Assembly: GCA_026413965.1 (NCBI GenBank)
Contig: JAOAJY010000005.1
Coordinates: 1-40,359 of the forward strand
Length of the DNA stretch: 40,359 bases
Direction: 5' to 3'
DNA from: Microcaldota archaeon
GTDB lineage: Archaea; Micrarchaeota; Micrarchaeia; Anstonellales; Anstonellaceae
Below the pieces are notes generated by a model. It made no database searches and was not told where the DNA came from. It worked only from the letters and a program-made list of their open reading frames with translations. The translations under genes and the position numbers were made by a program. Shown one piece after another: positions 31,393-39,856 of this stretch; the first letter of the stretch is position 1, and each line of letters opens with the position of its first letter.

Positions 31393-32571
31393 TCAAAGAC
31401 CTGCCTGCCTGCGAAGCTCCTTTGCTTTGTCGGTCCTCTCCCAGCTGAAGTCAGGGTCTTGCCTGCCAAAATGCCCATAAGCTGCGGTCTTTGAGTAAAT
31501 GGGCCTGCGCAAGTCCAAGTCCTTTATTATCTGCCCAGGCTTGAGCCTGAAGTTTCTTTTTATCAGCTCCTCTATTTTCTCCTTGGGTATTTTCTCGGTG
31601 CCATAAGTCTCCACAAATATGGAAACCGGGTCCGCTATCCCTATCGCGTAGGCAAGCTGCACTTCGCATCTGTCCGCGATCCCTGCGGCAACTATGTTTT
31701 TGGCTATGTATCTTGCCATGTAGCATGCGGACCGGTCCACCTTGGTCGGGTCCTTTCCAGAAAAGCACCCTCCGCCATGAGATGCCATTCCGCCGTATGT
31801 GTCCGCAATTATTTTTCTTCCTGTAAGCCCGGTGTCTGCGGCAGGGCCGCCAAGCACAAACCTGCCTGTCCCATTGACTATCACTTTTGTGCTTTTTGAG
31901 AAGTATCCCCCAAGGACAGGCTTCACCACCTTCTCAATTATGTCTTTGCGTATCCTTTGGCGGCTTAGCCTCTTTCCGCCATAGCTTTCATCATGCTGGG
32001 CGGCTATCACAACAGCCGAGACTCTTTTTGGGCGGTGCTTCTCGTCGTACTCCACTGTCACTTGCGTCTTTCCGTCAGGGCGCAGGTAGGGGATCGCCTT
32101 CCTTTTTCTTGCCAAGCTGAGCTGATAGGCAAGCTTTTGCGCAAGCGAGATTGGCAAAGGCATAAGCTCAGGCGTTTCCCGGACAGCATATCCGAACATT
32201 ATTCCCTGGTCCCCTGCCCCTATATTCTCCAAATCATCCTCCCTCACCCCTCTGGATATGTCAGGCGATTGCGAGTGGATTGACACAAGAACCCCTGAGC
32301 CTTTGCAGTCAAAGTGGTACTCGGGCTTGTCATAGCCTATTTTCTCCAAAGTCTTGCGCACTATCCCCTCAACGTCAGCGTATCCTGAGGTGGTTATCTC
32401 TCCTGCCACCACCACAAGCCCAGTGGTTGCAAGGGTCTCCACAGCGACATGGGATTTCGGGTCCTGCTCCAAAAGATTGTCCAATATGGCATCAGATATC
32501 TGGTCGCAGACTTTGTCAGGATGCCCCTCAGTCACTGCCTCGGAAGTGAAAAAGTACGACCTTTCAGCCAT
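31393..32571 (-). CDS. metK: S-adenosylmethionine synthetase, bacterial/eukaryotic type
   Basis: A 392-residue enzyme making S-adenosylmethionine from methionine and ATP. All key motifs are present: [11 protein letters not shown] (16-20), [55 protein letters not shown] and [16 protein letters not shown]. This is the MetK form usual in bacteria; most archaea instead have the unrelated-looking archaeal MAT, so a transfer from bacteria is likely. ATG 32571 has GGTGG 4 bases upstream and a TATA element at 32601-32608. It is divergent from a diverged paralogue. Confidence 0.97.
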
Positions 32572-32669: not shown

Positions 32670-32677
32670 TTTATATA
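32670..32677 (+). promoter_or_regulatory. TATA element of the MetK paralogue
   Basis: TTTATATA is centred about 27 bp before ATG 32701, preceded by a purine-rich AAAACGG that could be the BRE. A leaderless transcript is expected. Confidence 0.65.
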
Positions 32678-32700: not shown

Positions 32701-34032
32701 ATGAGAAAACCCAAGCCCAAAGACCAGCTAATTTATGTTCCTGCGGAGTTCAAGCGGAAGGGGCACCCTGACCGGCTGGCAGACTCAATAGCCTCTGCCG
32801 CAGGGGCTTGGCTTTTGGAGCTGGATCCATCAGCAAGGTTCGACATCCAAGTCACCGCGCACTTTGGGCCAATTTTGATCAAGGACGAAAAAGGCAATTC
32901 AGCGGCATCCTACAATCCCTCCCCAGTGGTTTTCATGTGCGGGCAGGTTGAGACCTCTGCAAAATGCGAAGCCTATCTGGAGAAAATGGAGCAAGCCGCG
33001 AGGTATTCTTTTGTGCAGGCAGGCTATGGCGCACAAAATTTTTTTGACCCCAAAGACATATTGGTGATAAGCAGCTTCAACAGGCAATCGCCTGATATAG
33101 CAGCTGGGATAAAAAGGAAAGGCAAGCAGGGAGCAGGGGATGCGACAATCTCGATTGCTTATGCAAGCAACCAGACTTCCAACCATCTCAACGCTTCGCA
33201 TGCCCTTGCGCTTGAGATAAACAGGCTGCTTGACGAGGCTTTTGCGTTTGGCTGGATAGATGGGCTTCAGCCTGATGGCAAAGCCCAGGTGGAGGTTGGG
33301 TTTTGCGGAAGGGAGAAAAGCTTCCCTTTCGGCCCAAAGGCAGCCTCTGACATAGTCGTGGCAGCCCAGCACAGCCCTGGCATTGATATTGGAAAATTCA
33401 GGAAAAAGATAAAGGAGCTTGTTTTTTGCGCAAATGATTCTCTTTTGAGCCTTGCTGGAAAGGCGCTTGGCCTGATAAGCAAAAGCACAAGGATAGTGGT
33501 GAATGGCGCAGGCGATTTTTCAGTAGGCGGGACAATGGCTGACACAGGGGTCAATGGCAGGATGGATTCCCTTTATGTTTCAGGCTCAAGCAGGACGTAT
33601 GGCGGCGGCCTGCTTGTTGGGAGGGACATAACAAAGACCGATGTCTCATGCCTGCTTTCTGCCAGGCTCATTGCCATACAGCTTGTGAATGGCTTTGCGG
33701 AGGATGCAGAAGTCAAGATAACTTATGCCATAGGGGCGACAGAGCCAGAGTCCGTCATCGTCACCGCAAGAGGCTCTCCGTATTCTGACAAGCAGCTTTC
33801 TGCTGCTGTCCAGAAGACTTTTGATTTGAGCCCTGAGGGGATGAAAAGCCTCCTTAGGCTGAATGCCGAGGATTTCCTGTCGATATCCAAAAACGGCTTC
33901 ATAGGGGTGCCTGCCAACGGCTCGCACAAGTGGGAGGAGGCAGATTATGAAAAAATCCGAATACTAAAGTCGCATCTTAAGAGAGGGGCTGCTGTGCCTT
34001 CAGGCTTTGAGGCTAAAGCATTGAGAAGATAG
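32701..34032 (+). CDS. Highly diverged MetK paralogue (S-adenosylmethionine synthetase-like)
   Basis: This 443-residue protein follows MetK from end to end: GHPDRLADS (21-29), SPDIAAG (130-136), GAGDATISIAYA (144-155), PDGKAQVEVGF (191-201), AAQH (221-224), VNGAGDFSVGGTMADTGVNG (267-286) and GGGLLVGRDITKTD (301-314). Several active-site positions differ. GHPDK is GHPDR; the glutamate of MetK's ETL/ETY segment is missing; GRK is GRM; SGKDP is VGRDI; the Arg after VD is lost. Conserved are the Asp of GAGD, the Lys of PDGK, the Asp and Arg of ADTG-GR, and the Lys and Asp of TKTD. It carries insertions and a longer C terminus. It may use other substrates, or pair with MetK, whose sites form at the dimer interface. 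Confidence 0.85.
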   Translation: MRKPKPKDQLIYVPAEFKRKGHPDRLADSIASAAGAWLLELDPSARFDIQVTAHFGPILIKDEKGNSAASYNPSPVVFMCGQVETSAKCEAYLEKMEQAARYSFVQAGYGAQNFFDPKDILVISSFNRQSPDIAAGIKRKGKQGAGDATISIAYASNQTSNHLNASHALALEINRLLDEAFAFGWIDGLQPDGKAQVEVGFCGREKSFPFGPKAASDIVVAAQHSPGIDIGKFRKKIKELVFCANDSLLSLAGKALGLISKSTRIVVNGAGDFSVGGTMADTGVNGRMDSLYVSGSSRTYGGGLLVGRDITKTDVSCLLSARLIAIQLVNGFAEDAEVKITYAIGATEPESVIVTARGSPYSDKQLSAAVQKTFDLSPEGMKSLLRLNAEDFLSISKNGFIGVPANGSHKWEEADYEKIRILKSHLKRGAAVPSGFEAKALRR

Positions 34033-34075: not shown

Positions 34076-34180
34076 GCCCTCGTGGTATAACTTGGATAGC
34101 ATGCGAGCTTGCGGTGGTCTGGGCTTTGCTGCCCAAGCCGCAGAAAGCTTGAGATCAGGGTTCAAATCCCTGCGAGGGCG
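34076..34180 (+). tRNA. tRNA-Arg(GCG) with a 31-base intron
   Basis: Acceptor GCCCTCG/CGAGGGC, anticodon stem CGAGC/GCTTG, T arm CAGGG-TTCAAAT-CCCTG and discriminator G are intact. The anticodon loop is interrupted at the canonical 37/38 position. A bulge-helix-bulge is visible: outer helix CGAGC/GCTTG, central 4-bp helix TTGC/GCAG, bulges GGT and AAA, and an inner helix GGTCTGGGC/GCCCAAGCC with one mismatch. Cutting after the second base of each bulge leaves loop TTGCGGA, so the anticodon is GCG. A20 in the D loop agrees with arginine identity. The D stem is weak (G-U, U-A, A-C, U-G). CCA is not encoded. Confidence 0.88.
34115..34145 (+). other. tRNA-Arg intron, canonical 37/38 position
   Basis: Thirty-one bases between G37 and A38, bounded by the two 3-base bulges of a bulge-helix-bulge motif and containing a hairpin with loop TTTGCT. 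It would be removed by the archaeal tRNA splicing endonuclease. Confidence 0.82.
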
Positions 34181-34195
34181 CTGGAGGTGCTTGCG

Positions 34196-39001: not shown

Positions 39002-39856
39002 ATGGTCAGCATCGCGGATTTGAACAACACAAATTGGGTGCAATGGTGCCCTGGATGCGGAGATTTTGGCATTCTGATAGCTTTGAAAGGCGCTCTGGTT
39101 AAGTTGGGGATTGAGCCGCATCAGACAGTGGTGGTGTCTGGAATAGGCTGCGCAGGAAAGCTTCCGCATTACATAAGGACTTATGGCTTTGAGGGCATAC
39201 ACGGAAGGGTTCTGCCTGCTGCCTCCGCAATAAACATGGCAAATGACAGGCTCACAGTTGTGGGCGTGGGAGGGGATGGCGACGGATATGGCATAGGGAT
39301 GGGGCATTTCATACATGCAATGAGAAGGAATTACGACATAGCTTACATTGTCCACAACAACGAAATTTATGGGCTTACAACTGGGCAGACTTCTCCCACA
39401 ACAAAAAAAGGCGTCAAGACCAAATCCACCCCTCACGGCAATATAGAAACAGAAGTCAATCCCATCATGCTTGCCCTTGCCTCTGGAGCCACCTTTGTGG
39501 CAAGGGGCTACTCAGGAGACATACCGCACCTGACCAGCCTGATAGCCGAAGGGATTGCCCACCGAGGATTTGCATTGATTGACGTGCTTCAGCCATGCGT
39601 CACCTGGCGCAAGGATTTGCCGTATGAGCTTTACCAAAAAATGGTCTACAAGCTGGAAAAGGAGGGGCATGACCCAAGCAGCTTTGAGGCGGCAATCAAA
39701 AAGGCGCAGGAGACTGAAAGGTGGCCCATAGGGGTATTCTACAAAACCCAAAAGCCGATTTACACAGACGACATACCATTCATCAAAGAAGAGCCGCTTG
39801 TAAAGCACGACATATCCAATGTGGACATATCCAAATTCATAGAGGAATTCATGTAG
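39002..39856 (+). CDS. korB: 2-oxoacid:ferredoxin oxidoreductase, beta subunit
   Basis: A 284-residue TPP- and [4Fe-4S]-binding subunit. The cluster and TPP features are VQWCPGCGDFGIL, SGIGCAGKLPHYI, GVGGDGDGYGIGMGHFIHAM (GDG motif), and IVHNNEIYGLTTGQTSPTTK closing the TPP site. It pairs with the fused gamma-alpha subunit just upstream. No separate ferredoxin-like delta subunit is present, as is usual for the two-subunit form. Its stop abuts the stop of the next, convergent gene. Confidence 0.94.
   Translation: MVSIADLNNTNWVQWCPGCGDFGILIALKGALVKLGIEPHQTVVVSGIGCAGKLPHYIRTYGFEGIHGRVLPAASAINMANDRLTVVGVGGDGDGYGIGMGHFIHAMRRNYDIAYIVHNNEIYGLTTGQTSPTTKKGVKTKSTPHGNIETEVNPIMLALASGATFVARGYSGDIPHLTSLIAEGIAHRGFALIDVLQPCVTWRKDLPYELYQKMVYKLEKEGHDPSSFEAAIKKAQETERWPIGVFYKTQKPIYTDDIPFIKEEPLVKHDISNVDISKFIEEFM

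Follow-up and report, generated by a model that had tools for sequence, protein, structure and literature searches.

A divergent MetK paralogue with a partly substituted active site next to metK in a Micrarchaeota genome

Organization of the metK locus

The window, by which we mean the whole 40,359-nucleotide stretch of DNA analysed here, comes from a Micrarchaeota assembly that totals 0.77 Mb, is split into 28 contigs and is 87% complete. It carries a bacterial-type metK, a divergently oriented gene for a second, unusual MetK-like protein, and a tRNA gene:

31393..32571, minus strand: canonical bacterial-type MetK, 392 aa, in divergent orientation and 129 bp from the paralogue (Pfam, TIGR01034)
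32701..34032, plus strand: divergent MetK paralogue, 443 aa (ORF reading, Pfam, TIGR01034, PDB matches, AlphaFold2 model)
34076..34181, plus strand: tRNA gene with an intron, bounding the variable slot described below on the side away from metK (Cys-GCA in ARAGORN intron mode; Arg-GCG by position in relatives)

The paralogue reads from an ATG start to a TAG stop with no internal stop codon, and its GC content and codon usage match those of neighbouring genes. A TATA-box-like TTTATATA at 32670..32677 (plus strand), 24–31 nt upstream of the ATG, suggests a leaderless archaeal promoter of its own. A scan for bacterial-type sigma-70 promoters and terminators gave nothing above chance, and a search of a defence-gene library (PADLOC) gave no match. 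The intron of the tRNA gene lies in the anticodon loop, and the default ARAGORN scan misses the gene.

Within the genus, metK is part of a conserved block: a Rad50-like gene, a small conserved gene, an EF-1beta-like gene, metK, and then two genes interpreted as the alpha and beta subunits of 2-oxoacid oxidoreductase (all names by reading). The variable part is the stretch from the metK start to a tRNA. This slot holds the paralogue in the window and in the genus-mate G003, with the same divergent order of paralogue and metK. In G001 it holds a divergent homologue of SAM hydroxide adenosyltransferase/SAM hydrolase (PF01887 and PF20257; L094:9380-10387), in G006 and G007 unknown proteins of about 550–600 aa, in G009 another unknown protein, and in G008 an AbrB/MraZ-like ORF with unknowns, a set to which that of G002 is similar. 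The nearest relative of G003 is G001, not the source genome (support 100/99). The paralogue is thus an accessory gene occupying a variable position, and either came down vertically with repeated losses or arrived by horizontal transfer. Since other genes fill the slot between metK and the tRNA in genus-mates, adjacency to metK is poor evidence of joint function, which weakens the hint that a first-pass annotation had drawn from it, namely that the paralogue could be a second MetK subunit. The SAM-hydrolase homologue of G001 hints at a SAM-related theme. Other neighbours of the paralogue in the window include carotenoid-type genes (by reading), and the neighbouring genes form no pathway that would name a substrate for it.

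Two further features were seen in G003. A 160-aa ORF (L023:3819-4298) of unknown kind lies between metK and the paralogue in this genome only; its likeness to a SAM_HAT C-domain is faint (E = 0.25), and we do not claim it as one. The 2-oxoacid oxidoreductase beta gene (L023:7725-9683) contains an apparent intein between WCPGC and CGDFG, which the window copy (39002-39856) lacks.

Domain composition and predicted fold

Pfam S-AdoMet_synt profiles match the paralogue in the C domain (E = 4e-24), M domain (1e-13) and N domain (2e-7), and PDB MetK chains match it down to E = 1e-38, values that place its homology to MetK far above chance. Curated Pfam cut-offs are passed by the M domain (51.7, cut-off 29) and the C domain (85.5, cut-off 25); the N domain scores 31.9 alone against a cut-off of 33.1 and 36.7 once the pieces in frame are joined, so that all three domains are present. 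In contrast, the NCBI metK equivalog TIGR01034 (cut-off 309.4 bits) gives 185.7 bits for the paralogue and 194.4 bits for its G003 orthologue, both below the cut-off, and 563.7 bits for the adjacent MetK, to which the paralogue is about 33% identical.

The AlphaFold2 model (mean pLDDT 82, pTM 0.85) has a complete three-domain alpha/beta MAT fold, with low confidence at residues 287–290 and 299–307. The best 50 listed PDB matches to the model are all MetK/MAT, with TM 0.70–0.77 by query and 0.82–0.88 by target (0.76/0.87 for 8jzg_A and 0.77/0.87 for 5t8s_A). The product of 32701-34032 is, as predicted from domains and model, a MetK-fold protein, and the first-pass description of a 443-residue MetK paralogue proved exact in its ORF.

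Kept and changed active-site residues

Translation and alignment bear out the motifs on which that annotation was built: GHPDR (residues 21–25), GAGD (144–147), PDGK (191–194), ADTG (280–283), GRM (286–288), VGRDI (306–310) and TKTD (311–314), with the ETL-type glutamate absent. The mapping of substitutions onto MetK that it had proposed was carried out and gave the full list of positions (E. coli numbering). Kept are E8, H14, D16, Q98, S99, I102, G115-D118, D163, K165, Q167, H189, F230, D238, R244, K269, D271 and I302; changed are K17R, E42Q, E55Q, Q119A, R229D, K245M, S263V and K265R and, in the loop that runs from K245 to the GGG motif, D249Y and Y251S. The annotation had missed the changes at E55 (Q82 in the paralogue), R229 (D272), Q119, D249 and Y251, together with a 19-residue insert (57–75) and a C-terminal extension. 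The main sites are the following (all plus strand):

32761..32775: GHPDR (residues 21–25); H14 and D16 kept, K17 replaced by R (alignment)
32848..32850: Q50 in place of E42, the VET/VEA glutamate of MetK (inter-subunit salt bridge to R244; K+ site) (alignment; PMC6850014)
32869..32925: 19-residue insert, absent from MetK (alignment)
32944..32946: Q82 in place of E55, a methionine amino-group ligand (alignment; PMC6850014, PMC3853416)
33514..33516: D272 in place of R229, before the kept F273 (adenine stacking) (alignment)
33559..33621: rewritten triphosphate-recognition loop R287..G307, with M288 for K245, Y for D249 and S for Y251 (alignment, model)
33622..33642: R308 for K265, then the kept K312 (K269) and D314 (D271) (alignment)

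Compared with the full catalytic set of MetK (EC 2.5.1.6), the paralogue departs at Q50, Q82, M288 and R308 and keeps the remainder. Among 52 residues conserved in both canonical MetK and a distant MetK-like family it keeps 41, and the 11 lost include E42, K245, D249, Y251 and K265 on the triphosphate side.

The roles of these residues are described for related enzymes, in which residues of two subunits together form a MAT site (PMC3853416, PMC6850014). In human MAT, Glu57 (E42) forms an inter-subunit salt bridge with Arg264 (R244), Glu70 (E55) and Gln113 (Q98) of one subunit hold methionine/SAM together with Asp258 (D238) of the other, and residues 264–273 make up the triphosphate-recognition loop; a role of F250 is also described (PMC6850014). 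In the E. coli enzyme, E55* and I102* belong to the second monomer and D163, D238 and F230 to the first (PMC3853416). Equivalents of R244, residue 245 and K265 orient the triphosphate (PMC3793261). Mapped onto these roles, the changes of the paralogue cluster on the wall around the triphosphate, the bridge positioning R244 and the ligand of the amino group. Unchanged are the ribose and adenine residues, the Mg ligands D16 and D271 and the general acid H14. For E. coli MetK, older literature describes E42Q as making the enzyme K+-independent.

Distribution and selection

The altered-site paralogue is so far known from two species only. A profile scan of 301 Micrarchaeota genomes found it in the source genome and, as the sole orthologue, in G003 (UBA10161); a first scan with a single-protein query had returned none. 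The orthologue is intact, 67% identical and retains every listed substitution. Identity between the two is higher at active-site columns (38 of 41) than elsewhere (252 of 402, 63%), and differences by codon position amount to 26%, 19% and 61%. For this pair pN is 0.234 and pS 0.736, a ratio that is indicative at most because synonymous sites are saturated; canonical MetK of the same genome pair is more constrained (pN 0.157). The pattern indicates that the paralogue is under purifying selection.

A decaying duplicate, which the patchy occurrence (2 of 301 genomes) might suggest, is thus highly improbable and was rejected: the gene is intact in both genomes and conservation is highest at the altered site itself. 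The first-pass view of an active but altered site stands as far as it excluded decay, for which it had named frameshifts or neutral rates in orthologues as the sign to look for. The proposed co-occurrence with bacterial-type metK also holds, in both genomes that have the paralogue. It says little, because archaeal-type MAT (PF01941) gave no match in the source genome or in any of eight genus genomes searched. Archaeal MAT catalyses the same reaction class; the paralogue is instead of the bacterial/eukaryotic type and has no PF01941 match.

Relatives and origin

With canonical bacterial and eukaryotic MetK/MAT (TIGR01034; PF00438/PF02772/PF02773) the paralogue has in common the fold, the three domains and H14, D16, Q98, D118, D163, K165, F230, D238, R244, K269 and D271; it differs by E42Q, E55Q, R229D, K245M, K265R, the rewritten 245–262 loop, the insert and the C-terminal extension. 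Its very long branch in the tree attaches outside canonical MetK, which speaks against a recent duplication of the neighbouring MetK, yet the AU test does not reject a placement with Micrarchaeota MetKs (p = 0.26). Viral origin was not retained: four scans of viral contigs found no orthologue and only two canonical-type viral MetKs, and the best phage and plasmid matches reach about 31% identity.

The GHPDR motif, which the first-pass annotation had read as a telling substitution, loses this weight because a separate large bacterial MetK-like family has it too. This family also shares with the paralogue NGAGDF in place of NPTGRF and H at E. coli position 138. Otherwise its pattern is the reverse: K245, K265 and E42 are kept, E55 is R, I302 is P, and the P100/D101 segment cannot be aligned. 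The family sits behind MoxR-VWA, whereas the paralogue is neither linked to MoxR/VWA nor E55R, and of 23 separating columns it follows canonical MetK in 5, the GHPDR family in 4 and neither in 14. We therefore do not place it in this family.

Members of the bacterial GHPDR family (GHPDR ... GDNGSGKK, E55R; L028, L030-L079) follow immediately after genes for a MoxR AAA+ ATPase and a VWA/CoxE protein, on the same strand and in the same order in many phyla: of 51 loci, 48 have VWA and 42 have MoxR, and those that lack one are cut near a contig end. These loci have no PADLOC match, and a paper on MoxR-vWA conflict systems does not mention MetK (PMC7159879); the arrangement looks like an undescribed system. 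In two Opitutae loci (L028:6520-12251, L030:7836-13589) a canonical-like MetK, MoxR, VWA and the MetK-like gene stand in one row, so that a MetK again lies beside a divergent homologue.

The Micrarchaeota genome G024 encodes, besides a normal MetK, another MetK-fold paralogue of extreme divergence (L024:794-2200). It is at most 28% identical to anything in the tree, carries H14K, E42R, R244A, K265E and D271S, and joins the paralogue by long branches only. Given the opposite patterns of the paralogue and the GHPDR family, at least two MetK-fold lineages, and a third in G024, have altered different parts of the site. In G030 a second MetK (L025:2144-3313) lies next to what reads as a ParB-like/DNA methylase gene; in the tree this MetK clusters with those of viral and plasmid-phage type and hence probably came from a virus.

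Discussion

The paralogue is probably a working relative of MetK with a changed job. The reading we tentatively prefer, though with somewhat less than even confidence, is a retained, active adenosyltransferase-type homodimer of MetK/MAT fold with altered handling of the substrate or leaving group. Such an enzyme would most likely still bind ATP (or an adenosine nucleotide) with a methionine-like amino acid or SAM and carry out C5'-S adenosyl chemistry. H22, D24, Q129, D147, D192, K194, F273, D281, K312 and D314 would preserve the function of the adenosyl-transfer half of the site, whereas M288, R308 and the rewritten loop would weaken or change triphosphate binding and hydrolysis, and Q82 would weaken the grip on the charged alpha-amino group. 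Q50 would loosen the usual R244-E42 bridge between subunits and the K+ site, so that K+ independence is expected. The protein would dimerize with itself, with sites at the interface, and the ordinary MetK alongside would supply the SAM of the cell. Canonical MetKs and the bacterial GHPDR family retain both K245 and K265, whose loss or change in the paralogue may therefore abolish turnover; the conservation of the site, seen in two sequences, would also fit a non-catalytic ligand-binding subunit.

The main rival, to which we give a minor though appreciable chance, is that the paralogue does not act alone but pairs with the adjacent MetK, in a heterodimer whose two composite sites depart from the canonical form and tune SAM output or product inhibition. 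The sharing of MAT sites between subunits makes this plausible, the kept R244 could pair with E42 of MetK, and the gene lies divergently beside metK in both genomes that have it; however, the slot is filled by unrelated genes in other genus-mates, and the MetK of both genomes looks ordinary at its active sites. The substituted residues fall in what we take to be both half-sites, so neither mixed MetK/paralogue site would be fully canonical. The human MAT2A–MAT2B pair offers a likeness, a regulatory partner for MAT, except that here the partner would be a MAT homologue, which MAT2B is not. A poorer or specialised SAM synthetase for the same reaction (K+-independent, for example, or slow in triphosphate release) seems unlikely: the adenosyl-transfer residues are kept and extra MetK copies are not rare, e.g. 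on plasmids and phages, but E55 and K245 are lost, the loop is rewritten, the score is 186 bits against a cut-off of 309, and the branch is very long. More doubtful still is the idea that the protein is a pseudoenzyme, a sensor or sink that binds SAM or ATP. Loss of the triphosphate lysine and the amino-group glutamate would suit it, and with a SAM-hydrolase homologue in the same slot of one genus-mate, control of the SAM level could be a theme; a pure binder, though, would not need the general acid, both Mg ligands, K165, K269 and D118, all of which are kept.

A bolder outcome, for which we see only a small chance, would be a MAT-fold enzyme that makes a non-SAM sulfonium/adenosyl product or takes a different activated adenosine in place of ATP, with ordinary MetK retained for SAM, or else a MetK-homologous regulatory subunit; we know of no case of the last in prokaryotes. 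The first-pass annotation had also raised a different thiol or nucleotide as substrate, which is conceivable: contacts to adenine and ribose are unchanged in the paralogue, those to the triphosphate and the amino group are not. In the open-access literature searched we found no paper on MAT in Micrarchaeota or MetK in DPANN.

If the paralogue makes ordinary SAM at an ordinary rate, the finding is a divergent isozyme. MAT is a highly conserved enzyme, and this DPANN assembly of 0.77 Mb has an accessory gene descended from a SAM enzyme, in which the adenosyl-transfer residues are retained and the triphosphate and amino-group contacts swapped. Overall, the paralogue offers a natural experiment on which half of a bifunctional site, SAM formation or triphosphate hydrolysis, can be dispensed with, and it is also a candidate for SAM-analogue chemistry.
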